Source: Clostridia bacterium (lineage in GTDB: Bacteria; Bacillota; Clostridia; Christensenellales; Aristaeellaceae). Taken from it: a DNA stretch of 64,000 bases. The translations under genes and the position numbers were made by a program. Shown here in pieces: positions 5,901 to 18,426 of this stretch. The stretch covers positions 1 to 64,000 of the forward strand of contig JAFXQO010000074.1 in assembly GCA_017527065.1 (NCBI GenBank), written 5' to 3'. The notes under the pieces are model-generated. The model saw only the letters and a list, made by a program, of their open reading frames with translations. It was not told the origin of the DNA and searched no databases. How positions within the stretch are numbered: the first letter of the stretch is position 1; each line of letters opens with the position of its first letter.

Positions 5901-5939
5901 GATATGCAGGACAAAATAAATAATCAGAGGAGGGATACC

Positions 5940-8135
5940 ATGAAACGCCTTATCGCGCTGCTGCTGGCCGCCGTCATGCTTTCGGGCGGATTCGCCCTGG
6001 CGGAAGAACCCGCGCCGGCGGAAGAACCCGCGCCGGCGGAAGAACCCGCGCCGGCGGAAGACCTCCGGGAGGCCTTTTGCGAACGGCTGACGGAGCTGCT
6101 GGAGGATTTCGACCCGACGGACGGGGACCGGGCGGCTCTGAGCCTGACCGCTCCCGATTGGCCGGGTGTCGGCCTCATCCTCAAGGGCGCCGAAAACCTG
6201 CTGGACCTGACCTTGCAATCCCCGGAAAGCGGAGACGCCAGGGCGCAGCTCACGCCGGAGGCGGCGTATCTCGCCGCGGGCGGATCGACGATAGCGCTCC
6301 GCTATGAGGACATCCCCGCCGTCGCCCAGGCGGCGGCCCAGGCCCTCCTGGAGGCCCAGGGCGTCGCGCTGGACCCGGAGGCTCTCGCCGCCATCGACGG
6401 GGAGACCGTGGACGAGCTGTTCGCGCTGCTGCTCCGGACGGCCGTCATGAAGCGCGTGACGCTGAAAACGGACGAGGACGGCCTTACGCTGCGTTACGCC
6501 GCCAGCGGGGAAGAGTTGCTCGCCGACCTCTGCGAATTCGCGGATCAGGTTCTGGCGGAGGAGAAGTACCAGCCCCTTTTGAAGCAGGTCTGGGCACTGA
6601 TCCGGGCCGCGAACGGCGGAACAGATCTTCCCGAATTTGAGGCGCTCATCGCCGCGTGGCCTCAGGCGAAGGAGTACCTGCTGGCCGTGGAAACCGATTT
6701 CTCCCTGACCCTGGAGGCCAACATTAAGAACGGCGGCGACCGGATCGCCATCAGCGCCGAGGCGGGCGTGCCGGGCGACCTGTACCTGGCCGACATCGCC
6801 CTGACCGCCGATCCCTACCGGGGCAAGCTGACCGCGGACGCCAAACTCACGGAGCGGATAACCCGCGGTAGCGGCGAGGAGGCCGTCGTCCGGGATTACG
6901 ACATTCTGGCCGGCTTTGACCTGACCGTCCGGGACGACGGCGCCCTGTGGCGGTTCAACGTGGATTATCCCAGCCGGTATTTCACGCTGACCATGAACGG
7001 CAGCCATCTGGAGGGCGAAGGCCGGATCACCCTGTCGGTGAGCGACGTGAGGCGCGCGCGGTATTCCTTCGACGCGGCGCTGGACTACGCGCTGTATGAG
7101 GACAGCTTCTCGGCCAACCTGACGGTGGACAGGCCCAGAGGCATGGGAACCGTTTTCACCCTGGCCCTGGACGCCAGAGTGATCGACGACGAGAAGGTTG
7201 TCCTCAGCTTCGAGGCCGGCACGCCGGAGGACATGTACCTGGCGGACCTCACCCTGGCCTTCGATTCCGACAAGGGCAAGCTGACCGCGGACGCCAGGCT
7301 CACGGAGCGGATAACCCGCGAAAACGGCGGGGAGACCGTCGCCCGGGATTACGATATCCTGGCCGGCTTCGACCTGACCGCCCGGTACGGCGGCGCCCTG
7401 TGGAGGCTCAACATCGACTATCCCAGCCGGTATTTCACCCTGACCCTGAACGGCGCTCACCTGGAGGACGAAGGCCGGATCACGCTGAAGGCGGCCAACA
7501 GGATGAGTCCCCGGGGATCCTTTGACGCGGAGCTGAATTACGCCATGGATGTGTACGAAGACAGCTTCGCGGCGGATCTGAAGGTGATCGACGGGGCCGG
7601 CGCGGAAACCGATCTGGACCTTTCCCTGGACGAAAGCCATTTCTCCTTCACCGCCGCCCGCGGCTATTCCCGCGACATCACCATGCGCCGCGGCCTTGAA
7701 GGCCCGGTTTCGGACGTGGTCTTCGCCCTGAAGGCGGAGGCGGACGAGGACGGCGCGCCGCAGTACGCGCTGCTGGCCGCCCGGGACTTCTCCGTGGAAT
7801 ACGACGGAGCGCAGGTGAACATCACCGCGAACGGCGTGACCGTACACTGCGCGGGCGAATTCGTATCCGACCATGAGTATCTGGTCACGCTGACCCCGGA
7901 AGGAGAACGCCTGGCCGACACGACGCCCGCCTACCTCCGCGTCTCTTATGAGGGCGAGGAGGGCGACTGGACGCTCCGGGCCGTGATGATCGATCCCGAA
8001 GGCGGCGAATACGCCTCGGCCGTCCTCGCCGTCGCCCCGGCCGGGCCGGTGGAATCCCTCGCGGACGCCGAAGGCCTCATGACGCTGACCCCCGAGCTCG
8101 CCCGGCAGCTGGTCGGCCTGATGATGGACAACTGA
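5940..8135 (+). CDS. Large secreted protein with a duplicated ~170-residue module, function unknown
   Basis: 731 residues with a clear Sec signal peptide (MKRLIALLLAAVMLSGGFAL, cleavage after ALA) and then a perfect triple repeat of EEPAPA (about residues 24-40), probably a flexible wall-spanning or anchoring linker. The rest is acidic and beta-rich. One module occurs twice, about residues 270-400 and 425-545, sharing GKLTADA(K/R)LTERITR, RDYDILAGFDLT and DYPSRYFTLT with DNA-level similarity, so the duplication is recent. There is no lipobox, LPXTG signal or recognised enzymatic motif. The start has GAGGAGGG just upstream. It is monocistronic between its own promoter and a strong terminator. 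The shape suggests a surface beta-structure protein; no family could be assigned. Confidence 0.75.
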   Translation: MKRLIALLLAAVMLSGGFALAEEPAPAEEPAPAEEPAPAEDLREAFCERLTELLEDFDPTDGDRAALSLTAPDWPGVGLILKGAENLLDLTLQSPESGDARAQLTPEAAYLAAGGSTIALRYEDIPAVAQAAAQALLEAQGVALDPEALAAIDGETVDELFALLLRTAVMKRVTLKTDEDGLTLRYAASGEELLADLCEFADQVLAEEKYQPLLKQVWALIRAANGGTDLPEFEALIAAWPQAKEYLLAVETDFSLTLEANIKNGGDRIAISAEAGVPGDLYLADIALTADPYRGKLTADAKLTERITRGSGEEAVVRDYDILAGFDLTVRDDGALWRFNVDYPSRYFTLTMNGSHLEGEGRITLSVSDVRRARYSFDAALDYALYEDSFSANLTVDRPRGMGTVFTLALDARVIDDEKVVLSFEAGTPEDMYLADLTLAFDSDKGKLTADARLTERITRENGGETVARDYDILAGFDLTARYGGALWRLNIDYPSRYFTLTLNGAHLEDEGRITLKAANRMSPRGSFDAELNYAMDVYEDSFAADLKVIDGAGAETDLDLSLDESHFSFTAARGYSRDITMRRGLEGPVSDVVFALKAEADEDGAPQYALLAARDFSVEYDGAQVNITANGVTVHCAGEFVSDHEYLVTLTPEGERLADTTPAYLRVSYEGEEGDWTLRAVMIDPEGGEYASAVLAVAPAGPVESLADAEGLMTLTPELARQLVGLMMDN

Positions 8136-8159
8136 GGCGCGAACGGCGCATCCCGATCC

Positions 8160-8228
8160 GCAAAGGCCCGCGGCGCAGCCTTCCAGGCAAAGCGCCGCGG
8201 GCCTTTGCGCCGCCCCACTTTCTTTTTT
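8160..8228 (+). terminator. Strong terminator before the rnf operon
   Basis: A perfect 17-bp stem (8160-8176 with 8192-8208) and, a few bases later, a T-rich tract TTTCTTTTTT. Confidence 0.8.
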
Positions 8229-8246
8229 AACCTTTGACGCCCGGCA

Positions 8247-8275
8247 TTTACAAACCATAGCCTGTATGGTATAAT
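8247..8275 (+). promoter_or_regulatory. Promoter of the rnf-nrf operon
   Basis: TTTACA (8247-8252), 17-bp spacer, TATAAT (8270-8275) with an upstream TGG giving an extended -10. It lies about 43 bases before the rnfC start. No FNR, NsrR or Rex site was recognised. Confidence 0.65.
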
Positions 8276-8317
8276 TGCATTGTCACTTTACGATAACAGG
8301 CCGAAGGGGAGTGGAGG

Positions 8318-9667
8318 ATGGTGAAGAGTACGTTCCGCGGCGGCGTGCATCCGGCCGATCATAAGGATCTGAGCCGGGAAGCGCCGCTGCGCGAGTTTCT
8401 GCCAAAGGGCGAGATGGTTTTCCCGCTCTCGCAGCATATTGGAAAGCCGGCCAGGCCCATCGTCAAAAAGGGCGACGCCGTGCTGGCCGGGCAGCGCATC
8501 GCGGAGGCCGACGGCTTCGTCTCCGCGCACATTATATGCTCCTGCTCGGGCACGGTGAAGGCCGTCGAGCCGCGCCGCACGCTCACGGGCGGGATGATGG
8601 ACTGCATCGTGGTGGACAACGACGGGCAGTTCACCCCCGCGGCGGACTATACGAAACGCCAGGACGTCTCGAAGCTGGACGGCGACGAGATCGTCCGCCG
8701 CGTCCAGGAGGCGGCCATCGTGGGCCTGGGCGGCGCGGGCTTCCCCACGCACGTGAAGCTCCGGCCCAAGGATCCGGCCGGCATCCGCTATCTCATCGCC
8801 AACGGCGCGGAGTGCGAGCCCTACCTCACGGGCAACGACCAGCTCATGCGCACCCAGGCGGAGGCCATCGCCGAGGGCATGGAGCTGATCCTGTGCCTGT
8901 TCCCGAACGCGGAGGGCGTCGTCGGCATTGAAAAGAACAAGCCCGAGGCCATCGCGGCCATGCAGAAGGCCTGCGCCGGCAAGGCGCGGCTGCGCGTGCT
9001 GCCGCTCAAGACGAAATATCCCCAGGGCGGCGAGCGCAGCCTGATCCAGGTGATCGCCGGGGTGGATTTCCCCATCACCGGCCTGCCCGCCGACGTGGGC
9101 TGCATCGTGGACAACGTGGGCACGATCTACGCCGTGCAGCGGGCGGTGGTCTACGGCGAGCCGCTGTTCTGCCACGCGCTCACCCTCAGCGGCGAGGCGG
9201 CGAAGAACCCCGGCAACTACATCGTGCGGGACGGCACCAGCTTCCAGGAGCTCCTGGACGCCGCGGGCGGCCTGAAGGACGGCGTGACCCTCAAGAAAGC
9301 GCTGGCCGGCGGCCCGATGATGGGCATCGCCATGGCCTCGCTGGAGGTGCCCATCCAGAAGCAGAACAACGGCCTGACGCTGCTCGCCGAGGACGAAAAC
9401 GAGCGCGCCGAGCTGGAAATGACGGCCTGCCTGCACTGCGGGCGCTGCACCACGGTGTGTCCCATGGGCCTTTTGCCCCAGCTGATGGCGGACGCCGTGT
9501 CGGTGGGCGACCTGGCGCGCTACGAGGGCAAGCTCTACGGCCTGGAGTGCATCCAGTGCGGCTCCTGCACCTACATCTGCCCGGCCAAGCGGCCGCTGAT
9601 GCAGACCTTCAAGCAGACCAAGGCGGAAATCATGGCGCGCAAGCGCGCGGCGGGAGGTAAAAAATGA
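8318..9667 (+). CDS. rnfC: Rnf electron transport complex subunit C
   Basis: Cytoplasmic NADH-binding, FMN-containing peripheral subunit of the Rnf complex, which couples reduced ferredoxin:NAD+ electron flow to ion transport. 449 residues. Visible are the Rossmann-like flavin/NAD region VGLGGAGFPTHVK (about residue 136), NGAECEPYLT, KYPQGGE, and two [4Fe-4S] motifs CLHCGRCTTVCP (from C371) and CIQCGSCTYICP (from about C411). It is first in the operon and overlaps the next gene by ATGA (9664-9667), indicating translational coupling. The subunit order C-D(G)-E-A-B follows the common clostridial CDGEAB arrangement. Confidence 0.97.
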   Translation: MVKSTFRGGVHPADHKDLSREAPLREFLPKGEMVFPLSQHIGKPARPIVKKGDAVLAGQRIAEADGFVSAHIICSCSGTVKAVEPRRTLTGGMMDCIVVDNDGQFTPAADYTKRQDVSKLDGDEIVRRVQEAAIVGLGGAGFPTHVKLRPKDPAGIRYLIANGAECEPYLTGNDQLMRTQAEAIAEGMELILCLFPNAEGVVGIEKNKPEAIAAMQKACAGKARLRVLPLKTKYPQGGERSLIQVIAGVDFPITGLPADVGCIVDNVGTIYAVQRAVVYGEPLFCHALTLSGEAAKNPGNYIVRDGTSFQELLDAAGGLKDGVTLKKALAGGPMMGIAMASLEVPIQKQNNGLTLLAEDENERAELEMTACLHCGRCTTVCPMGLLPQLMADAVSVGDLARYEGKLYGLECIQCGSCTYICPAKRPLMQTFKQTKAEIMARKRAAGGKK

Positions 9668-11241
9668 ATACGGCGCTCAATATTTCCTCCAGCCCCCACG
9701 CGAGGGACAAATGGACGACCGCGTTCATCATGCGGATCGTGCTGCTCGCGCTCCTGCCCACCACGATCGTGGGCGTGGCCGTTAACGGGCTGCACGCGCT
9801 GCTGATCGTGCTGATCGGCGTCGCCGCGGCGGTCGGAACGGAATTCGCGTTTGACAAAGCCTGCCACAAGCCCGATACCTGGAAGGACGGCAGCGCGGCG
9901 GTCACGGGCCTGCTGCTTGCGCTGTCCCTGTCGCCCTCCTCGCCGCTCTTCGCGCCGGCGCTGGGCAGCGTCTTCGCCATACTGGTGGTCAAGTGCTGCT
10001 TCGGCGGCCTGGGCAAAAACTTCATCAACCCCGCCCTGGCCGGGCGCTGCTTCCTGCTGATCTCCTTCGGCCGGGCCATGTCCAGCTTCCAGGTGGACGG
10101 CGTGTCCTCCGCCACGCCCATCGCGCTGCTGATGACCGGCAAGGCCGTGAACATCACGCAGATGTTCCTGGGCACCGCCAACGGCGTCATCGGCGGGTCG
10201 ATCCTGTGCCTGTTGGCCGGCGGCCTGGTCCTCTGGGCGCTGGACGTCATCCATGGCGAGATCTGCTTCTCCGTGCTGGGCGGCTTCACGCTGTACATGG
10301 CGCTGTTCGGCGGGCAGGGGTTCGATCCTAAGTTCCTGCTGGCGCACCTGTGCGGCGGCGGCGTGATGATGGGCGCCTTCTTCATGGCGACCGACTACGT
10401 CACCTCTCCGGTCAGCAAGCTGGCCCAGGCGTGCTACGGCGTGCTGATCGGCGTGCTGGGCGGCCTGTTCCGGCTGCACGGCGGCACGGCGGACTCCTTC
10501 AGCTACGCCATCATCATCGGCAACCTGTTTGCGCCGATCCTGGACACCTATGTCATTCCCAAGCCCTTCGCCTACCGCCGCGCGGCCCTGCGCGCCCGCA
10601 GCGGCGACAAGCGCCCCTTCCTGCAGCGCGTCCCGCGCCCGGTGGTCGTGCTGACGGCCATCACCCTCATCGCGGGCCTGGCGCTCTCCGGCGTCTACGC
10701 CATGACGAAGGACATCATCGAGGACCAGCAGCGCCTGGCAAACACCGCCTCCTACAAAGTGGTCGTTCCCGAAGCCGACCACTTTGAGAACGTGGCCGCC
10801 ATCGACCGCGCCATCGAGGACCTGGACGGCGGCGTATACGGCGCGGGCTTCGGCCGCGCTTACATCCGCGAGACCGTGGCCGGCGTGGACGCGGAAGGCC
10901 ATACCGTGGGCTACGCCATCCGCGTGACCAGCTCCGACGGCTTCGACGGGGACATCACCCTGGTGGTGGGCGTGACGGTGGAGGGCGTTCTGAACGGCAT
11001 CTCCTTCACAGAGCTGAACGAGACCCCCGGCATGGGCATGCGCTGCGCCGAGCCGGCCTTCAAGGACCAGTTCAACAACCGCAGCGCCGCCTCCTTCCGG
11101 CTGAACAAGTCCGGCGCGTCGGATAACTCCGACGACGGCATCGACGCCGTGTCCGGCGCGTCCATCTCCTCCAGCGCCGTGGTCAACGCGGTGAACGCGG
11201 GCCTCGACTTCTTCCACTCCGTCATCAAGGAGGGAACATGA
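9664..11241 (+). CDS. Fused Rnf subunits D and G (RnfD-RnfG)
   Basis: One 525-residue reading frame carries two subunits normally encoded separately. Residues about 1-305 are RnfD: many membrane helices, TWKDGSAAVTGLLLALSL, GGLGKNFINPALAGR, and SSATP near 148-152 where the family carries covalent FMN on Thr. From about residue 318 (PVVVLTAITLIAGLALSG) RnfG begins with one membrane helix and an extracytoplasmic FMN-binding domain ending in the flavinylation motif VSGASISSSAV (S497-S500). No stop or internal ribosome site was seen between them; the linker is about 15 basic residues. The downstream gene starts two bases after the stop. A separate rnfG is absent, so the fusion is probably functional. 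ApbE, which would attach both flavins, is not in this window. Confidence 0.93.
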   Translation: MNTALNISSSPHARDKWTTAFIMRIVLLALLPTTIVGVAVNGLHALLIVLIGVAAAVGTEFAFDKACHKPDTWKDGSAAVTGLLLALSLSPSSPLFAPALGSVFAILVVKCCFGGLGKNFINPALAGRCFLLISFGRAMSSFQVDGVSSATPIALLMTGKAVNITQMFLGTANGVIGGSILCLLAGGLVLWALDVIHGEICFSVLGGFTLYMALFGGQGFDPKFLLAHLCGGGVMMGAFFMATDYVTSPVSKLAQACYGVLIGVLGGLFRLHGGTADSFSYAIIIGNLFAPILDTYVIPKPFAYRRAALRARSGDKRPFLQRVPRPVVVLTAITLIAGLALSGVYAMTKDIIEDQQRLANTASYKVVVPEADHFENVAAIDRAIEDLDGGVYGAGFGRAYIRETVAGVDAEGHTVGYAIRVTSSDGFDGDITLVVGVTVEGVLNGISFTELNETPGMGMRCAEPAFKDQFNNRSAASFRLNKSGASDNSDDGIDAVSGASISSSAVVNAVNAGLDFFHSVIKEGT

Positions 11242-11242
11242 C

Positions 11243-11929
11243 ATGAACAAGTACCTTGAGCGGCTGTACAACGGCATCGTCAAGGAAAACCCCACGCTGA
11301 TCCTGATGCTGGGCATGTGCCCCACGCTGGCGGTCTCCACCCGGGCCATCAACGGCATCGGCATGGGCCTGTCCACCACGGCGGTGCTCATCCTCTCCAA
11401 CCTGGTGATTTCCCTCCTGCGCAAGCTGATCCCCGACCAGGTGCGCCTGCCGGCCTACATCGTCGTGGTGGCCTCGCTGGTCACGGTGACGGAGCTGACC
11501 ATGCAGGCCTACCTGCCCGCGCTCTACGAGGCGCTGGGCATCTACATCCCCCTGATCGTGGTCAACTGCATCATCCTCGGCCGCGCCGAGGCCTACGCCA
11601 ACAAGCATTCCGCCGGCCTGTCCGTGATGGACGGCCTGGGCATGGGCCTGGGCTTCACCCTGGCGCTGACGCTGGTGAGCGTCATTCGCGAGCTGCTGGG
11701 CAACGGCACCTTCTTCGGCGCGCAGATCCTGCCGGAGAGCGTCGATGCCATCGCCATCTTCGTCCAGCCGCCGGGGGCCTTCCTGGTGCTGGCCGCGATC
11801 ATCGCCGTGATGAACGCCATCGGCATCAAGTCCCGCCAGCGCAAGCTGGTGGAGAGCGGCTGCGACGGCCAGTGCGCCGCCTGCGCCATGAGCTGCGATA
11901 AGAAGGGGAAGGAGGGAAGCGCCCAATGA
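11243..11929 (+). CDS. rnfE: Rnf complex subunit E
   Basis: Integral membrane subunit (228 residues, about six helices) of the NqrD/RnfE family; with RnfA it forms the pseudo-symmetric core holding a membrane iron-sulfur cluster. It starts NGIVKENPTLILMLGMCPTLAVST and contains IPLIVVNCIILGRAEAYA, the conserved Cys-bearing helix. The C-terminal tail is unusual in being Cys-rich and cytoplasmic, CDGQCAACAMSC (four Cys), which could bind metal but is not part of the core family. It overlaps rnfA by four bases. Confidence 0.96.
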   Translation: MNKYLERLYNGIVKENPTLILMLGMCPTLAVSTRAINGIGMGLSTTAVLILSNLVISLLRKLIPDQVRLPAYIVVVASLVTVTELTMQAYLPALYEALGIYIPLIVVNCIILGRAEAYANKHSAGLSVMDGLGMGLGFTLALTLVSVIRELLGNGTFFGAQILPESVDAIAIFVQPPGAFLVLAAIIAVMNAIGIKSRQRKLVESGCDGQCAACAMSCDKKGKEGSAQ

Positions 11930-12504
11930 AAAGCCTGATTCTGATCATCGTCAGCGGCGCGCTGATCAACAACGTGGTGCTGAACCAGTTCCTGGGCATC
12001 TGCTCCTTCCTTGGCGTCTCCAAGCAGATGAAAGCTTCCGTGAGCCTGGGCGGCGCGGTCATATTCGTCATCACCATCGCCTCCGCGGTGGCCAGCCTCC
12101 TGTACGACTACGTGCTCGCCCCGCTGGGCCTCGACTTCATGAAGACCATCGTGTTCATCCTGGTCATCGCGGCGCTGGTCCAGGTGGTCGAGATGTTCCT
12201 GAAAAAGAAATCCCCCGCCGTCTACAAGGCGCTGGGCATCTACCTGCCCCTGATCACCACCAACTGCGCGGTGCTCGGCGTGGCGCTCACCAACGTGCAG
12301 GACGGCTACAACTTCCTCGAGAGCGTGCTCTCCGGCTTCGGCACGGCGGCGGGCTTCACCATCGCCATCGTGCTGCTGGCCAGCATCCGCAGCCGCATGC
12401 GGGAGGAGGACATCCCCGCGCCGCTGCGGGGCGCGCCCATCGTGATGATCTCCGCCGCGCTCATGTCCATTGCGTTTCTGGGCTTCTCGGGCCTGTCGTT
12501 CTGA
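11926..12504 (+). CDS. rnfA: Rnf complex subunit A
   Basis: 192-residue, six-helix membrane protein of the NqrE/RnfA family, partner of RnfE. Typical segments are NNVVLNQFLGICSFLGVS near the N-terminus and GIYLPLITTNCAVLGVAL, whose Cys residues coordinate the intramembrane [2Fe-2S] cluster in this family. It begins inside the end of rnfE (ATG at 11926) and is followed after 12 bases by rnfB. Confidence 0.97.
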   Translation: MKSLILIIVSGALINNVVLNQFLGICSFLGVSKQMKASVSLGGAVIFVITIASAVASLLYDYVLAPLGLDFMKTIVFILVIAALVQVVEMFLKKKSPAVYKALGIYLPLITTNCAVLGVALTNVQDGYNFLESVLSGFGTAAGFTIAIVLLASIRSRMREEDIPAPLRGAPIVMISAALMSIAFLGFSGLSF

Positions 12505-12516
12505 GGAGGCGATCGC

Positions 12517-13314
12517 ATGCAGATAATTTTGATTACGACGCTTGTCATCGCCCTGGTGGGCCTGGTGGTCGGCGCGGCGCTGGTGTTCATGAGCGGCAAG
12601 TTCCACGTGGAGGTGGACGAGCGGGAGAGCGCGGTGCGCGAGTGCCTGCCCGGCAACAACTGCGGCGCGTGCGGCTACGCGGGCTGCGACGCCATGGCGG
12701 CGGCCATCGCCGCGGGCGAGGCCCCGGCGAACGGCTGCCCGGTGGGCGGCGCGCCGGCGGCGGAGAAGATCGGCGCCATCATGGGCGTGTCGGTGGAAAC
12801 GGTGGAGCGCAACGTCGCCTTCGTGCGCTGCAAGGGCAGCTGCGACGTGACCCACAACCAAGGCAACTACATCGGCATAAAGGACTGCCGCAGCGCGGTT
12901 CTCTCGGGCCTGAACGTGACCGAGTGCGGCTACGGCTGCCTGGGCTTCGGCTCCTGCCAGGCGGTCTGCCCGGAGAACGCCATCCGCGTGGTCAACGGCG
13001 TGGCCGTCGTCAACCGCAGCCGCTGCGTGGGCTGCGGCCTGTGCGTGAAGGCGTGCCCCAGGAACCTCATCGAGCTGGTGCCCGCCAGCAAGCGCGTGGC
13101 CGTTCAGTGCTCGAACAGGGACCGGGGCCCGCTGGTCAAGAAGGTGTGCTCCGCCGGCTGCATCGGCTGCACGCTGTGCACAAAGCAGTGCGAGGTTGGG
13201 GCCATTTCGATGAACGGCGCCCTGGCGCACATCGACTACGCCGCCTGCGTGCAGTGCGGCAAGTGCGCCGAAAAGTGCCCCGCAAAGGTCATCACGCCGC
13301 CGGCGGCCTCCTGA
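12517..13314 (+). CDS. rnfB: Rnf complex subunit B (ferredoxin-accepting iron-sulfur subunit)
   Basis: 265 residues: an N-terminal membrane anchor (IILITTLVIALVGLVVGAAL), then the four-Cys cluster domain CGACGYAGC (about residue 46), a second motif CGYGCLGFGSCQAVCP, and three ferredoxin-type motifs CVGCGLCVKACP, CIGCTLCTKQCE and CVQCGKCAEKCP. RnfB accepts electrons from reduced ferredoxin on the cytoplasmic side. The third ferredoxin motif ends in CE rather than CP. It is last of the rnf genes; nrfA follows after 41 bases with no terminator between. Confidence 0.97.
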   Translation: MQIILITTLVIALVGLVVGAALVFMSGKFHVEVDERESAVRECLPGNNCGACGYAGCDAMAAAIAAGEAPANGCPVGGAPAAEKIGAIMGVSVETVERNVAFVRCKGSCDVTHNQGNYIGIKDCRSAVLSGLNVTECGYGCLGFGSCQAVCPENAIRVVNGVAVVNRSRCVGCGLCVKACPRNLIELVPASKRVAVQCSNRDRGPLVKKVCSAGCIGCTLCTKQCEVGAISMNGALAHIDYAACVQCGKCAEKCPAKVITPPAAS

Positions 13315-13355
13315 GATACTGAGGATCACCCCGGCTGAAAGGTTGAGGATCGGAT

Positions 13356-14636
13356 ATGGAAAACAAGAAGTACGTCAAGATAGCCTGCGCGGCGGCGGTC
13401 GTCGTGGCGGCCGCCCTGTGCCTGAGCGGCCTGTTCGGCGGCGACATGATGTATCACCTGCGCAACCGCGGCAGCCTCGGCCCGCTGACCCGTGACGACA
13501 TCGACTACCGGGAAATCGAAGCGCCCGAAGCCACCAGCCAGGACGGCACGATCAGCGCCGCCGACTGGGCCGAGGCCTATCCCTACATCGTCGCCACCAT
13601 GGGCGACAACGACAAAAACAGCTACGTCGTCGACTACCTGGAGCAGGACCCGTACCTCGTGAACATCTACGAGGGCTATGGCTTCGCCAAGGACTACGGC
13701 AGCGCGCGCGGCCATAACTACACGCTGGCCGACGTCGAAAAGACCCAGCGCCCCCATCCCAAGGCCAACTGCCTCACCTGCAAGACCCCCAACTTCGCCA
13801 AGCTGGTCAACGACCAGGGCGTGGGCGTCTACTCGATGCCCTTCGACGAGGTCATGGCGCTGATGGAGGAAAACATCAGCTGCTACACCTGCCATGGCAA
13901 CGACGCCGGCAACAAAGGCGCGCTGGTCGTCACCCACAGCTACGTGACCAAGGCCCTGGGCAACAGCGCGAAGGCCATCGACCCGGCGACGCTCTCCTGC
14001 GGCCAGTGCCACATCGAGTATTACTTCACCCGCGAGGACTCCGAAACCATGATGCCCTACCGCAACGTCGTGGGCATGACGCCCGACGCCATACTGGCCT
14101 ACTACGACGGGATAGACTTCTACGACTGGATCCAGGAATCCACCGGCACGAAGCTGCTCAAGGCGCAGCATCCCGAGATGGAGACCTTCCTGCAGGGCAA
14201 GCACGCGGCGCTGCTCAACTGCGCCGACTGCCACATGGCCATCGAGCAGGCCGACGACGGAACCATCTACCACAGCCACGAGCTGGTGAGCCCGCTGGAG
14301 AACGAGACGCTGCTCTCCAACTGCGCCACCTGCCACGGCGACACCGACATGGTTGGCATGGTGCGCCGCCTGCAGAGCCGCGTGACCGACCGGGAGACCG
14401 AGGTGGGGAACAAGCTGAGCGACATGAAGGACGCCCTCGCCGAAGCCGTCTCCTCCGGAACCTGGAAGGAAGAAGACCTGGACGCCGTGCGCAAGCTGCA
14501 CCGCAGCGCCCAGTGGTACTTCGATTTCTGCTACGTGGAGAACGCCGAGGGCGCGCATAACTCCGAGCTGGCGCTGAAGTGCCTGGACGCCGCCGAGGCG
14601 ATCATCGACGAGGCCATGGGACTGCTCGCAAAATAA
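13356..14636 (+). CDS. nrfA: Cytochrome c nitrite reductase (ammonia-forming), membrane-anchored
   Basis: Pentahaem enzyme reducing nitrite to ammonium with six electrons, outside the cytoplasmic membrane. 426 residues with an N-terminal hydrophobic anchor or signal (residues 6-26). Haem sites: CLTCK at 139-143 (the active-site CxxCK with Lys ligand), CYTCH at 176, CGQCH at 215, CADCH at 289 and CATCH at 323. Active-site features of NrfA are present: Arg in SARGHNY, the CGQCHIEYYF segment (calcium and Tyr ligands), KAQHPE and His in GKHAALLNC. The usual electron donor NrfH is absent; upstream are the rnf genes and downstream the haem-attachment genes resB and ccsA. This implies a single respiratory unit; direct electron supply from Rnf is an inference. 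Confidence 0.95.
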   Translation: MENKKYVKIACAAAVVVAAALCLSGLFGGDMMYHLRNRGSLGPLTRDDIDYREIEAPEATSQDGTISAADWAEAYPYIVATMGDNDKNSYVVDYLEQDPYLVNIYEGYGFAKDYGSARGHNYTLADVEKTQRPHPKANCLTCKTPNFAKLVNDQGVGVYSMPFDEVMALMEENISCYTCHGNDAGNKGALVVTHSYVTKALGNSAKAIDPATLSCGQCHIEYYFTREDSETMMPYRNVVGMTPDAILAYYDGIDFYDWIQESTGTKLLKAQHPEMETFLQGKHAALLNCADCHMAIEQADDGTIYHSHELVSPLENETLLSNCATCHGDTDMVGMVRRLQSRVTDRETEVGNKLSDMKDALAEAVSSGTWKEEDLDAVRKLHRSAQWYFDFCYVENAEGAHNSELALKCLDAAEAIIDEAMGLLAK

Positions 14637-14647
14637 ACGGAAAGGCC

Positions 14648-14695
14648 GACGCGGCAGGCGCGGGCGCACATTCGCCCGGCCCTGCCGCGCTTTTT
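14648..14695 (+). terminator. Internal terminator/attenuator between nrfA and resB
   Basis: An eight-base outer stem (14651-14658 with 14681-14688) and six-base inner stem (14661-14666 with 14673-14678) are followed by GCTTTTTGG. As resB and ccsA are needed for NrfA, this is probably a partial terminator that lowers their expression relative to nrfA. Confidence 0.6.
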
Positions 14696-14709
14696 GGATG
14701 GGAGGATAT

Positions 14710-15996
14710 ATGCCGACTGTCAGGAAAATCTGGAAATTCGTCTCCTCCATGCGCTTCGCCATCATCCTTTTGGCGGCGCTGGCCGCGGCCTGCTCCGTTG
14801 CCAGCCTGGTCACCCAGGGGCAGGACTACGCCTGGTACGCCCAGCGCTATTCCGACAGGACCGCGGCGCTCATACTGGCCCTGGGCCTTGACGACGCCTT
14901 CCACAGCGGCTGGTTTATCCTCATCAACGGGTTTCTGTGCCTGAACCTGCTGCTGTGCAGCGTGTCGCGGCTGCCGCGGCTGATCGAACGCACCCGGGCC
15001 GAGGCCGACCCGAAGGCCGCGCTGCGGGGCGAGGGCGGCGTCCGCGCCGAAGGCGTCGCCGACCCGAAGGCGGCCTTCGCCCGGCTGCGCATGGGGAAAC
15101 CCGTCGAGACCGCGACGGAGGACGGGCGGCGCGCGCTGTTCGCCTCGAAGAACCGGATCGGCCTGTGGGGCGCGTGGGTGTGCCATGTGGGCATCCTGCT
15201 GCTCATCGCGGGGTTCTCGCTGGGGCAGGCGACGCAAAAGCAGTACGCGGTGTACGGCGCGCCGGGGCAGGCAAAGGCCATCGGCGACACGGGCTATGTC
15301 CTCGCCATAGACGATTTCCGGATCGCCCTGCGGGAGGACGACACGGTGGAGCAGTACACGGCGGACATCACCGTGACGGGGCCGGACGGCCGGTCCGAAG
15401 GCGCTGAAATCAGCGTCAACAACCCCGCCGCGCTGTTCGGCATGAAGTTCTACCAGAATTCCACCGGCTGGGCGGCGACGGTGCGCGTGGCAGAGGGCGG
15501 CGAGCCGCTGCAGGAGGCGATCCTCTGCGCGGGCGAATACCTGCGCGTGGCGGACAAGCCCGACCTGGTGATCGACTTCAACGCCTTCTACCCGGACTAC
15601 GTTCAGAGCGCCGGGTCCATGCCCGCGACGGCCACGGGACAGCTGAACAACCCGGCCTACCTGTATTCCGTGTATTACCTGGAGCAGATGATCGGCATGA
15701 ACGTGCTCATGGAAGGCGAAAAACTGACTATAGACGACTACACCGTCACCTTCTCCGAGCCGCAGCCCTACACCCTCATCCAGATCAAGGCGGACCGCTT
15801 CACCGGCCTGGCGCTGCTGGGCGGCCTCATCACGACGCTGGGCCTGCTGCTGGCGTTCTACGTCCAGCCGGCGAAGGCCTGGGCCGTTCAGGAAGCGGAC
15901 GGCCGCTGGACGCTGCGGGGCGAGAGCCGGAAGGGCGGCGCGCTGTTCAGGGAAGCGTTCCTGCGCGCGGCGGGCGCGGAGAAAGATAAATCATAA
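14710..15996 (+). CDS. resB: Cytochrome c biogenesis protein ResB/CcsB (System II)
   Basis: With CcsA it forms the System II synthetase that carries haem across the membrane and attaches it to CxxCH motifs. 428 residues: membrane helices near residues 10-30, 70-90 and 155-175, a long extracytoplasmic domain (about 180-355), and a final helix (GLALLGGLITTLGLLLAFYV). The start pattern (KIWKFVSSMRFAIILLAALA) matches the ResB family. The ATG at 14710 follows GGGAGG at 14700-14705; an in-frame ATG at 14698 overlaps that site. The partner ccsA follows after 27 bases. Its target here is surely NrfA, the only c-type cytochrome in view. Confidence 0.93.
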   Translation: MPTVRKIWKFVSSMRFAIILLAALAAACSVASLVTQGQDYAWYAQRYSDRTAALILALGLDDAFHSGWFILINGFLCLNLLLCSVSRLPRLIERTRAEADPKAALRGEGGVRAEGVADPKAAFARLRMGKPVETATEDGRRALFASKNRIGLWGAWVCHVGILLLIAGFSLGQATQKQYAVYGAPGQAKAIGDTGYVLAIDDFRIALREDDTVEQYTADITVTGPDGRSEGAEISVNNPAALFGMKFYQNSTGWAATVRVAEGGEPLQEAILCAGEYLRVADKPDLVIDFNAFYPDYVQSAGSMPATATGQLNNPAYLYSVYYLEQMIGMNVLMEGEKLTIDDYTVTFSEPQPYTLIQIKADRFTGLALLGGLITTLGLLLAFYVQPAKAWAVQEADGRWTLRGESRKGGALFREAFLRAAGAEKDKS

Positions 15997-16023
15997 AGAA
16001 AAATCATAGAGAGGTCAAAATTC

Positions 16024-16839
16024 ATGCTGCAAGCCGAAAACACGCTGTTCACCATCGTCATGCTGATCTACTTCGCCGCAATGATACTGTATTTCGCCTT
16101 CATCGCGGCCCGGCGGGAGGGCGTCGCCAAGGCGGCCGTGGCGCTGCAGGCCGCCGGGTTCCTGCTGCATACGGCGGCCCTCGTCTGCCGGGGGATCGGC
16201 GCGGGCCGGCTGCCCCTCACCAATCAATACGAGTTCGCCACCAGCTTCGCCTGGGGTCTGTGCCTGGTCAGCCTGGCGTTCATCTTCCGGTACAAATTCA
16301 CCGTGCTGGGGGCCTTCGCCGCGCCGGTGGTCTTCCTCATCATCGGCTACGCCGCCATGCAGAGCAAGGAGGTTCGCGAGCTCATGCCCGCGCTGCGCAG
16401 CAACTGGCTGGGGTTCCACGTGTCCACCGCCATCATCGCCTACGGCGCGTTCGGCGTGTCCTTCGTGCTGTCGGTCATCTTCCTGCTGCGCGACCGCATG
16501 AAGGCGAGCGGTTTCCTGGACCAGCACATCCCGGACCGTGAAAAGCTGGATGTGATCAGCTACCGCAGCGTGTCGCTGGGGCTGCTCTTCCTCACCTTCA
16601 CCATCGTCACCGGCGCGATCTGGGCCGAGCGCGCCTGGGGAAGCTACTGGTCCTGGGACCCGAAGGAGACCTGGTCGCTGGTCACGTGGATCGTGTACGC
16701 CGCCTACCTGCACCTGCGCATCCGCCGGGGCTGGGAGGGCCGGGCGGCGGCCGTCTTCGCGGCGGTGGGGTTCCTGTGCGTCATGTTCACTTACATCGGC
16801 GTGAACACCTTCCTGCCCGGCGTCCACAGCTACGCCTGA
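16024..16839 (+). CDS. ccsA: Cytochrome c biogenesis protein CcsA/ResC (System II)
   Basis: Polytopic membrane haem-handling protein of System II, 271 residues and about eight helices. The tryptophan-rich WWD-type segment WAERAWGSYWSWDPKETW (about residues 200-217) is diagnostic, with flanking His residues (WLGFHVS, and PGVHSYA at the C-terminus) that ligate haem in the family. A ribosome site AGAGAGG precedes the ATG. It ends the operon and is followed by a strong hairpin. The usual third System II member, the ResA/CcdA thiol-reduction pair, is not seen here. Confidence 0.95.
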   Translation: MLQAENTLFTIVMLIYFAAMILYFAFIAARREGVAKAAVALQAAGFLLHTAALVCRGIGAGRLPLTNQYEFATSFAWGLCLVSLAFIFRYKFTVLGAFAAPVVFLIIGYAAMQSKEVRELMPALRSNWLGFHVSTAIIAYGAFGVSFVLSVIFLLRDRMKASGFLDQHIPDREKLDVISYRSVSLGLLFLTFTIVTGAIWAERAWGSYWSWDPKETWSLVTWIVYAAYLHLRIRRGWEGRAAAVFAAVGFLCVMFTYIGVNTFLPGVHSYA

Positions 16840-16853
16840 TTCATCGTGGGTCC

Positions 16854-16893
16854 AGGGGCCATGGAGACCGGCTTCCATGGCCCCTTCCTTTTA
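16854..16893 (+). terminator. Terminator of the rnf-nrf-ccs operon
   Basis: A perfect 11-bp stem (16855-16865 with 16874-16884) followed by TTCCTTTTAT. It separates ccsA from the convergent SPOCS gene. Confidence 0.75.
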
Positions 16894-16899
16894 TGCGGC

Positions 16900-18426
16900 T
16901 CATCCCCGAACCCGGATGAACAGCGGCGTCCCGGCGCTGGCCGCGGCCAGGCCGCCGTTGTCCGCCTTCAGCTGCTCCAGGGGGATCCGGTAGCGCCGCC
17001 CGACCGTCCAGAGGGTATCCTCCGCCGAGGGATAATATACGCCCATGCCCCGCCGGCGCGGCTCGGCCTGGGCGGCCTGGGCGTCGGTCACGACGGCGGT
17101 TTCCATCGTCTTCCAGGAGACGCCCCGGGCGGTGAGCACGCATTTGAGCTCCATGCGGTCGCTCATCAGCGCGCTGGCCTCGGCCTCGGAGGCCGTCACC
17201 CAGAGGGCCGCATCCTCGCCGGCGGGCGCGTCCAGCTTGATGGAAAAGGGCAGCTCCGTCCGCACGGAGGCCAGCCGCTCCCCGCCGGAGGGCATGTACA
17301 GCACCGTCGCCTCCAGCACGCCCTGCGCCTTGCCCGCGCCGTTTTCCGCCTCCCAGCCGCTCACCACCGGCCGCACCCGCGCCGCCAGGGCCGCGCCGGC
17401 GCCGGGCGCGCCCTCGGGCAGCAGCAGCGCGCCGCGGAAGGTCTCCCGCGCCTGGACGCACGCCGCGCCGGCGCAGACCGTCAGCGCCTCCCAGGTGAGG
17501 GCGAGGGCGCCGCCGCCGGCCACATAGGCGTCGCTCACGGCGTCCACGCAGTCCTCGCCGTCCAGCCGCGCCGTCACCTGCAGGGCGCATTCCAGCTTCA
17601 GCGCGGCGTCCCCGCCTTCGGTGCCTTCCTCCACCTCCACGTTCAGATCCTGCACCTCGGCCTCGCAGTCCGGCTCGCCCTCGAGCCAGTCCGGCATGGC
17701 CACCAGCTGCTCAAAGGGCAGCTGGCAGCGCACCAGGGCCACCGGCCGGCCCGCCACGCTGCTGGCGATCAGCGACTCCACCTGCACCGCGCCGCTCACC
17801 CGCACGCCCCCCAGATCCCGCTCCGCCGACTCCACGCGGGGCTCCGCCCACTGCATCAGCACCACCCGCGCGTGCAGCGCCCCGGGCAGGCTGACGCTGT
17901 CCGACAGCCGGGCCGTCTCGCTGTTTTCGGCGCTGGTGCGCGCGGAGCAGACCGGAGATGTGAGCGCCTCGACCGGCTCGTCCGCCGCGATCTCCGTCAC
18001 GGCCTCCACCGGCGCGAGGCTGCGCACGCGCACCATCACCGCCACCGTCACCTGGAACACCATGTGTCCGTTGTCGTAGGCCGCCTCCACGTGTTCCACG
18101 GCCGCCCGGGCGCGCACGGCCATCTGCGGCTGCGCGCCCTCCATGTCCACGGCCTGCTCAAACCCGGCGCGGGCTGTGAGGGCCTTGAGGCCGCCTTCCT
18201 CCCCCAGCCGGTACACCGCCTGGCACTGAACCTGGCCCGTGACCAGCACGCGCCCGGCCTGCGCCTCCGCGCCCGTGACCGACGCGAAGGCGTCCTCCAT
18301 CAGCGTCTCCACCGATTCCCGGCCCGCGCCGGGCACCGCCGCCTCCGCCCGCACGGGAATCTGAAACGACGCGCCGCCCACCAGCCTTTCCACTTCGATC
18401 GACCGCTTCGTGCACGATACCTCCAT
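16900..18426 (-). CDS. SPOCS (DUF3794)/LysM protein, spore-morphogenesis-like
   Basis: 508 residues. Repeated DUF3794/SPOCS beta-modules occupy about residues 10-440 (recurring pattern of hydrophobic strands, for example VSGAVQVESLIAS and QCQLPFEQ-like segments), ending in a LysM domain at about 455-505 (GVYYPSAEDTLWTVGRRYRI, PLEQLKADNG). SPOCS plus LysM is the architecture of SipL, which recruits coat proteins to the forespore in clostridia; here the SPOCS part is long. There is no signal peptide, consistent with mother-cell cytoplasm. Start ATG at 18426 with AAGGAGG upstream. The composition is Ala/Glu-rich. Whether it is the true sipL or a paralogue cannot be decided. Confidence 0.75.
   Translation of the reverse strand: MEVSCTKRSIEVERLVGGASFQIPVRAEAAVPGAGRESVETLMEDAFASVTGAEAQAGRVLVTGQVQCQAVYRLGEEGGLKALTARAGFEQAVDMEGAQPQMAVRARAAVEHVEAAYDNGHMVFQVTVAVMVRVRSLAPVEAVTEIAADEPVEALTSPVCSARTSAENSETARLSDSVSLPGALHARVVLMQWAEPRVESAERDLGGVRVSGAVQVESLIASSVAGRPVALVRCQLPFEQLVAMPDWLEGEPDCEAEVQDLNVEVEEGTEGGDAALKLECALQVTARLDGEDCVDAVSDAYVAGGGALALTWEALTVCAGAACVQARETFRGALLLPEGAPGAGAALAARVRPVVSGWEAENGAGKAQGVLEATVLYMPSGGERLASVRTELPFSIKLDAPAGEDAALWVTASEAEASALMSDRMELKCVLTARGVSWKTMETAVVTDAQAAQAEPRRRGMGVYYPSAEDTLWTVGRRYRIPLEQLKADNGGLAAASAGTPLFIRVRG

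Follow-up and report, generated by a model that had tools for sequence, protein, structure and literature searches.

How does a pentahaem cytochrome c nitrite reductase, NrfA, receive its electrons when its gene stands in one operon with the genes of an Rnf complex and no gene for the quinol oxidase NrfH accompanies it? The question is raised by an eight-gene unit on the + strand (positions 8318-16839) of a 64,000-nucleotide stretch of contig JAFXQO010000074.1 from a Clostridia bacterium of the order Christensenellales (GenBank assembly GCA_017527065.1), which we call the window. All eight genes are open and follow one another in the order rnfC, rnfD-G, rnfE, rnfA, rnfB, nrfA, resB and ccsA. 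According to a 2025 review of NrfA that covers mainly Gram-negative systems, the redox partners of the enzyme are NrfH, CymA and NrfB/NrfCD, all of which are linked to the quinol pool; Rnf does not occur in the accessible text of that review (PMC12285233).

We consider it likely that the products of the operon form a short respiratory chain without quinones, which leads from Rnf through a covalent flavin to NrfA and makes ammonium. Reduced ferredoxin, or NADH (reduced nicotinamide adenine dinucleotide) at the other end, would donate electrons to Rnf, which would move them across the membrane to a covalent flavin on the RnfG part of the RnfD-G protein; this flavin would pass the electrons directly to the membrane-anchored pentahaem NrfA, which would reduce nitrite to ammonium outside the membrane. 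The ResB-CcsA pair would mature the haems of NrfA, the lysine-ligated CXXCK haem included; the NrfA of a derived subclade itself contains additional FMN_bind domains of the RnfG-like kind. The electron steps inside Rnf are established knowledge of this complex. We infer the step from RnfG to NrfA because of linkage, fusion, co-occurrence and missing alternatives; the direction and rate of electron flow, its branching between NAD+ and NrfA, the pumping of ions on this branch, the conservation of energy and the maturation of the haems by this particular ResB-CcsA pair are predictions from sequence. An initial annotation, made from the letters of the window, had described the operon and proposed that electrons reach NrfA from Rnf; its observation is confirmed, and its interpretation is supported and extended by the comparisons described below.

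Linkage of nrfA and rnf among relatives

NrfA was found in 13 of the 297 genomes of the order sample, in 4 others among the 391 genomes of the class sample and in 75 others among the 398 genomes of the phylum sample (G and L numbers below denote genomes and loci, respectively). Within the order sample, the window has the rnf operon directly upstream of nrfA, as do 11 of the 12 other NrfA genomes (in G179, one FMN_bind gene separates the two), so that the adjacency is not a matter of chance. In the twelfth genome, G264, the nrfA contig is 4,264 bp long and starts inside the gene, and on another contig the frame after rnfB has flavinylation motifs and reaches the contig end. Chance or an assembly artefact as the source of the gene order can be dismissed, given that the same order is present in dozens of separate assemblies, among them two genomes consisting of 2 contigs each (G284 and G179).

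A scan of named genomes with six peptide patterns, which finds close relatives only, yielded 69 further loci. Together with 12 loci of the order sample, these make up 81 clade loci, in which one contig appears twice (L018 = L118); the 81 rows of the trees and conservation counts include this contig once and the window in addition. The adjacency of rnfB, nrfA and resB, for which the initial annotation suggested looking in other genomes, recurs throughout this set: rnfB is located upstream of nrfA on the same strand in 68 of the 81 loci, in 53 of them at most 231 nucleotides from the NrfA match, and nrfA is followed by resB in 78 loci and by ccsA in 71. Among the 15 loci in which rnfB is farther away, ten have an FMN_bind extension (with altered motifs in L115 and a broken frame in L128); in L110 and L111 a reductase gene stands in between, L025 combines a fusion with a separate FMN_bind gene, and the NrfA frame of L142 is short. 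The 1 kb between rnfB and nrfA in L079 is not accounted for. The 13 loci without rnfB comprise seven with less than 1.9 kb of upstream sequence in view and six with at least 3 kb. Apart from three loci considered below, the misses of resB and ccsA have less than 1.5 kb of downstream sequence in view. Record titles point to ruminants as the source of at least 25 of the 69 named relatives. One clade NrfA with rnf (L103) belongs to a draft titled Erysipelothrix rhusiopathiae (RUG11795), a label that looks doubtful.

Outside the clade, no rnf operon was found beside nrfA in the 17 loci fetched, and no locus examined beyond this clade shows the Rnf link. A single frame in L060 matches rnfB locally at 39%, with no other rnf genes present. 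A small NrfH-like open reading frame with 3-4 haems adjoins nrfA in 17 of 34 short loci outside the clade, as against none of the 69 named clade loci. We also considered, and rejected, flavinylated donors that would replace NrfH in other lineages: none of ten genes upstream of nrfA that were compared with Pfam encodes FMN_bind. These genes included ATP-binding cassette (ABC) transporter parts, SIR2, a metallopeptidase, a protein with beta-lactamase fold and flavodoxin, a LysM protein, DUF5131, a response regulator and an amine oxidoreductase.

Fusion of flavin-binding domains with NrfA

The relationship goes beyond adjacency in a subclade of 12 rows of the NrfA tree (SH-aLRT, the Shimodaira-Hasegawa-like approximate likelihood ratio test, 99), in which RnfG-like FMN_bind domains are fused to the catalytic domain and precede it, follow it or do both. 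Here and below, the NrfA and RnfC trees come from quick searches with SH-aLRT as the only support and with several long-branched outgroup rows, and only the splits named in the text are used. Pfam confirms Cytochrom_C552 and FMN_bind in one protein in L018, L020, L022, L024 and L025; in L114, L129, L130, L131 and L138, flavinylation motifs in frame with NrfA were recognized by motif. The fusion in L115 has flavinylation motifs without the usual glycine, and the frame in L128 is broken in the draft. The FMN_bind domains fused to NrfA point to transfer from flavin to haem, and such unions of a proposed donor domain with the enzyme are the strongest evidence for the proposed electron path. In the L138 and L115 fusions, tandem linker repeats of the KYMRERPAF type lie between the FMN_bind and NrfA domains, with fewer repeats in L114 and L018.

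A second type of reductase appears at the same place. The 974-amino-acid protein of L025 combines FMN_bind, a flavocytochrome-c type reductase and NrfA, and adjoins a separate protein with four FMN_bind domains. In L110 and L111, an FMN_bind-flavoprotein reductase is encoded between rnfB and nrfA; that of L110 matches the NCBIfam flavocytochrome c family, and in L111 a NusG_II-domain protein is encoded in the same interval. With somewhat less confidence than for the chain itself, we lean towards the view that gut Clostridia possess a modular platform in which one Rnf lineage, in most cases with an RnfD-G fusion, feeds interchangeable terminal reductases via covalent flavins, be it NrfA, a flavocytochrome-c type reductase or both in one chain, which would give NrfA its fourth, and first non-quinol, partner.

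A separate Rnf lineage accompanies NrfA

RnfC was matched in 270 of the 297 order-sample genomes. The window RnfC reaches 68-78% with those of the 12 other NrfA genomes, 63% with that of G056, and at most 46% with those of other genomes among the matches listed. At a threshold of E 1e-10, each of the 13 NrfA genomes has a single RnfC, save for a partial 35% second match in G061; G079, which is congeneric with four fusion genomes, has no NrfA and an ordinary Rnf (41%). The RnfC tree splits 66 NrfA-associated rows (57 adjacent to nrfA, 8 elsewhere in the genome, and G056) from 8 ordinary ones with SH-aLRT 99. The two groups also differ in architecture: RnfD and RnfG form one chain in all 62 clade loci that show both, as opposed to the ordinary rnf loci fetched, where the RnfD frame ends without RnfG in 7 of 7. 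In the ordinary operons of L162, L163 and L165, no RnfG match at E 1e-6 was obtained between rnfD and rnfE, and their RnfG may be absent, diverged or encoded elsewhere. Another ordinary operon, L164 (G035), from the same family, encodes a 925-amino-acid RnfG-like protein with six repeated flavinylation motifs (6887-9664) and no NrfA match, and hence a multi-flavinylated RnfG.

The association extends to genomes in which the two loci are apart. Twelve genomes with nrfA and no visible linked rnf were searched for NrfA-type RnfC. The genome of L118 (the G264 case) has one at 78%, and of the other 11, 8 carry the NrfA-type Rnf elsewhere, at 52-64%, including all 6 genomes with at least 3 kb of sequence upstream of nrfA in view. 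RnfD-G is one frame in the unlinked operons L186, L188, L189 and L191, as it is in L187 as far as the contig reaches; L190 and L192 are cut. Both trees fit a stepwise history in which unlinked genes would have been followed by fusion of RnfD with RnfG, then by the joint operon and, finally, by fusion of the domains. Beside the unlinked operon of L188 lies a convergent frame of 700 amino acids with a flavinylation motif (6703-8805, minus strand).

Other donors and the quinone question

The initial annotation had reported that NrfH is absent and had suggested that quinones are bypassed. No match to PF03264, the NrfH/NapC/CymA family, was found in the window genome (3.07 Mb in 85 contigs, 89% complete) or in any of the 13 NrfA genomes of the order sample, with the positive controls, the nrfH-bearing G1003 and G778 as well as Escherichia coli, all matched. 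Likewise, PF01040, the family of UbiA-type quinone prenyltransferases, has no match in the window genome or in 12 of the 13 NrfA genomes, and was matched in 14 of 14 controls. The sole PF01040 match, in G254, was rejected as evidence of menaquinone synthesis by MenA, in that the frame adjoins a phosphatase-like frame and, judged by motifs only, is probably not a MenA and resembles a decaprenyl-phosphate phosphoribose synthase. Both elements of the initial proposal are thus upheld within the reach of these searches, and a quinol donor for NrfA appears unlikely, with the qualifications that PF01040 was the sole quinone family tested and that ready-made quinones might be taken up.

A further search concerned the origin of the nitrite. 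The molybdopterin oxidoreductase family PF00384 was not found in the window genome or in 11 of the 13 NrfA genomes (the matches are in G254 and G061; 11 of 14 controls matched), which makes an external source of nitrite probable for most of these bacteria. In G919, outside these genomes, NrfA is present and neither PF03264 nor PF01040 is matched in the genome. Together with L060-L071 and other NrfA loci of the class and phylum samples that have neither a small multihaem neighbour nor rnf nearby, this genome suggests that another donor of NrfA may exist.

The nitrite reductase

The nrfA gene of the window (13356-14636, + strand), the only one found in its genome, encodes a protein with an N-terminal hydrophobic anchor (residues 5-33) that matches PF02335 (Cytochrom_C552) with E 3e-74 and 251 bits, the cut-off being 24.1. 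Its matches among solved structures (phmmer) are the cytochrome c nitrite reductases 3ubr (E 4e-49) and 1gu6 (E 1.5e-42), with alignments that span the RGH, EYYF and KAQHPE regions. There are five haem motifs, CLTCK139, CYTCH176, CGQCH215, CADCH289 and CATCH323, the first of which is of the CXXCK form. The protein falls below the strict NCBIfam equivalog cut-offs for NrfA, with 216 against 595 and 181 against 692.5 bits.

Alignment to solved NrfA structures was used to place the catalytic arginine, tyrosine and histidine and the calcium-site residues. The lysine of the CXXCK motif (K143), Y222 and H272 are invariant in all 81 rows of the clade, as are E221, K269 and Q271, which we take to be the calcium-site residues of NrfA; R118 is kept in 78 of 81 rows (two gaps and one valine). 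The haem cysteines are present in all 81 rows and the histidine of haem 3 in 80; in L090, the sole exception, glutamine replaces this ligating histidine. By family, motif and predicted active site, the window protein is a nitrite reductase, and nitrite is its presumed natural substrate.

Structure of the operon

The rnf genes, all on the + strand, encode all six subunits of an Rnf complex (RnfABCDGE), with D and G in one chain and the flavinylation motifs in place. The first gene, rnfC (8318-9667; TIGR01945, E 3e-141; PF13375, RnfC_N, and PF01512, Complex1_51K), belongs to the NrfA-associated lineage and codes for the cytoplasmic subunit on the NAD side, with flavin mononucleotide (FMN) and iron-sulfur (Fe-S) centres. 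It is followed by the rnfD-rnfG fusion (9664-11241), a 525-amino-acid protein in which NQR2_RnfD_RnfE is joined to an extracytoplasmic FMN_bind domain by a hydrophobic segment (323-348), with flavinylation-type motifs SSAT near residue 148 and DAVSGAS near residue 497. Next are rnfE (11243-11929; TIGR01948, E 1.9e-74) and rnfA (11926-12504; TIGR01943, E 1.1e-76), both with Rnf-Nqr domains, and rnfB (12517-13314; TIGR01944, E 1.7e-28), the Fe-S subunit on the ferredoxin side with FeS and Fer4 domains. Downstream of nrfA lie two genes of System II cytochrome c synthesis, resB (14698-15996, + strand; PF05140, E 4e-49) and ccsA/ccsB for the haem-handling protein (16024-16839, + strand; TIGR03144, E 9e-81; Cytochrom_C_asm). 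Pfam and NCBIfam agree on all eight proteins except ResB, which has a Pfam match only. ApbE is encoded once in the window genome and was found in 12 of the 13 NrfA genomes of the order sample.

The successive junctions from rnfC to ccsA are a 4-nucleotide overlap, 1 nucleotide, another 4-nucleotide overlap and gaps of 12, 41, 61 and 27 nucleotides, in keeping with the initial description of co-directional genes with overlaps or gaps under 75 nucleotides behind one promoter. The consensus scan places a promoter-like site, TTTACA-17-TATAAT with TG before the second hexamer (11 of 12 matches), at 8247-8275 on the + strand, 42 nucleotides 5' of rnfC. It is the sole + strand site of this kind in 8100-17000, where three others lie on the minus strand; the four sites observed compare with 1.2 expected from shuffles. 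On the 3' side of ccsA, the scan for terminator-like sites and folding identify a hairpin that resembles an intrinsic terminator (16854-16885, + strand), with 13 pairs and a T-rich tail (-29.3 kcal/mol, z -2.3; 3 of 200 shuffles equally good). Two weak + strand terminator-like sites with 5-pair stems lie within the operon, at 10360 in rnfD-G and at 14500 in nrfA; in all, the region has 5 terminator-like sites against 4.7 expected in shuffles, which is no excess. A single transcript for the unit from rnfC to ccsA would fit the promoter-like and terminator-like flanks, which are not proof of it.

Directly upstream of the operon, 5904-8135 encodes a 743-amino-acid protein with a signal-like start, internal near-repeats recognizable by eye and no Pfam match. 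A sporulation-type protein with a SipL/SPOCS domain is encoded on the minus strand at 16900-18426, convergent on the operon end.

Weighing the alternatives

Several observations weigh against direct feeding of NrfA by Rnf, or limit its generality. The linkage is not obligatory: in L122, L123, L126, L127, L134 and L141, at least 3 kb upstream of nrfA is in view and nrfA-resB-ccsA stands apart from rnf; and given that the scan of named genomes finds close relatives only, its linkage rate is no rate for NrfA at large. Nor are the haem maturation genes constant neighbours: within the 9 kb in view, L014 and L016 have neither resB nor ccsA, and L090 has no ccsA. G056 has the NrfA-type Rnf lineage on a contig that ends in rnfD, and no NrfA was found in this genome; conversely, in 3 of the 11 unlinked genomes the NrfA-type Rnf was not recovered (L120 has none, L124 a 40-amino-acid fragment and L088 a 31% partial match). 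An ordinary RnfC is also present in two NrfA genomes, those of L141 (39%) and L110 (41%), so that the NrfA-type Rnf is not the sole Rnf everywhere, and in L193, among the deepest unlinked genomes, RnfD and RnfG are unfused. ApbE was not found in the NrfA genome G104, which is 88% complete. Finally, neither an NrfH-family donor nor a UbiA-family prenyltransferase was found in the window genome, but no search was aimed at NrfBCD; that genome is only 89% complete, many relatives are draft assemblies, and all the evidence is sequence. NrfB and NrfD would both need quinol.

Three other explanations deserve attention; our estimates for them overlap, the first being compatible with the same Rnf-NrfA wiring. 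In that first explanation, which we regard as unlikely though the best of the three, the wiring would be as proposed and NrfA would mainly remove nitrite, nitric oxide, hydroxylamine or another small oxyanion, with little gain of energy. NrfA enzymes act on several substrates, and in the 11 genomes without a molybdopterin oxidoreductase, the window genome included, a probably external supply of nitrite may be occasional. However, the Rnf that accompanies nrfA has the only full RnfC detected in the 13 genomes of the order sample, which suggests a central chain (the genomes of L141 and L110, which keep an ordinary RnfC, are outside this sample), and the flavocytochrome-c type reductase that some relatives have fused or inserted at the same place also argues against a purely protective role.

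Considerably less probable, in our judgement, is that Rnf and NrfA merely share a transcript and that NrfA is reduced by some other, unrecognized donor. Such co-regulation would accommodate the six loci in which nrfA-resB-ccsA is away from rnf, the lineages whose NrfA has neither a small multihaem neighbour nor linked rnf, and the gap in the search with respect to NrfBCD. The FMN_bind domains fused to NrfA, the co-occurrence of NrfA with one Rnf lineage even when the two are unlinked, and the lack of any match to the NrfH family or to a quinone prenyltransferase in the window genome all speak for direct feeding by Rnf instead. It is very improbable that the pentahaem domain is a mere electron conduit, MmcA-like or for extracellular acceptors, a notion close to the wording of Meheust et al. 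2021 on the fused form (PMC8238504) and encouraged by the role of MmcA as a conduit in the rnf operon of Methanosarcina acetivorans (PMC11024163) and by the scores of the window protein below the NrfA equivalog cut-offs: the CXXCK lysine, the catalytic tyrosine and histidine and the calcium-site residues, which a conduit would presumably not need, are kept in all 81 rows of the clade.

Comparison with known systems

If Rnf feeds NrfA directly, strict anaerobes without quinones can respire nitrite, and Rnf would be the single coupling site of a respiratory chain of two complexes. The fusions of FMN_bind with NrfA make the electron path directly testable. In the ruminant gut, methanogenesis and the reduction of nitrite to ammonium compete for reductant.

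Among the papers listed from the openly licensed literature of PubMed Central, no title or abstract describes an rnf-nrfA operon or an Rnf-fed NrfA. The accessible parts of PMC11334425 and PMC12174285 (in each of which nitrite occurs 0 times), PMC6479175, PMC12918512 and PMC10811737 contain no rnf-nrfA link, and the Sporomusa system, as far as it is described in PMC12780646, is an NrfHA with NrfH and likewise without such a link. The closest precedent is the report by Meheust et al. 2021 of multi-flavinylated RnfGs with a "multi-heme cytochrome domain" in rnf clusters of Christensenellales (text and legend to Fig. 6H; PMC8238504), which very probably correspond to the fused form seen here in L020, L022, L024 and L129-L131. 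NrfA does not occur in the main text of that article, where both mentions of a nitrite reductase concern NirS, and its text was not found to describe an RnfD-G fusion, missing quinones or an operon in which nrfA stands alone (PMC8238504).

The catalytic subunit is like that of the NrfHA and NrfABCD systems, with five haems, a CXXCK catalytic haem and the conserved arginine, tyrosine and histidine. The difference lies in the supply of electrons: the NrfHA and CymA systems use NrfH or CymA and quinol, whereas here no member of the family was found in 13 genomes and no UbiA-family prenyltransferase in 12 of them, NrfB/NrfCD not having been searched for. The resB-ccsA pair resembles the System II genes beside nrfA in the Wolinella nrfHAIJ operon, whose NrfI is, according to the accessible text of the review, the only confirmed System II protein that recognizes CXXCK (PMC12285233). 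The pair encoded here is a candidate synthase for the CXXCK haem of NrfA and, hence, a candidate for a System II route to such haems.

Flavocytochrome-c reductases of the fumarate/urocanate reductase type, examples of which are encoded in L110, L111 and L025, are respiratory reductases fed by a covalently flavinylated domain. Unlike those that are fused to FMN_bind, the terminal enzyme encoded in the window, a haem nitrite reductase, has no flavin domain of its own. The nearest functional parallel is the MmcA-Rnf system of Methanosarcina acetivorans, where, as proposed here, Rnf electrons leave through a multihaem cytochrome whose gene is part of the rnf operon; the analogy drawn in the initial annotation holds in kind, with mmcA as the first gene of that operon (PMC11024163). 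MmcA has seven haems, is a relative of octahaem tetrathionate reductase and feeds methanophenazine or extracellular acceptors (PMC11024163), whereas the cytochrome of the window is a bacterial terminal reductase of the Cytochrom_C552 family with five haem motifs, which would make the Rnf-NrfA chain the bacterial counterpart of MmcA-Rnf.

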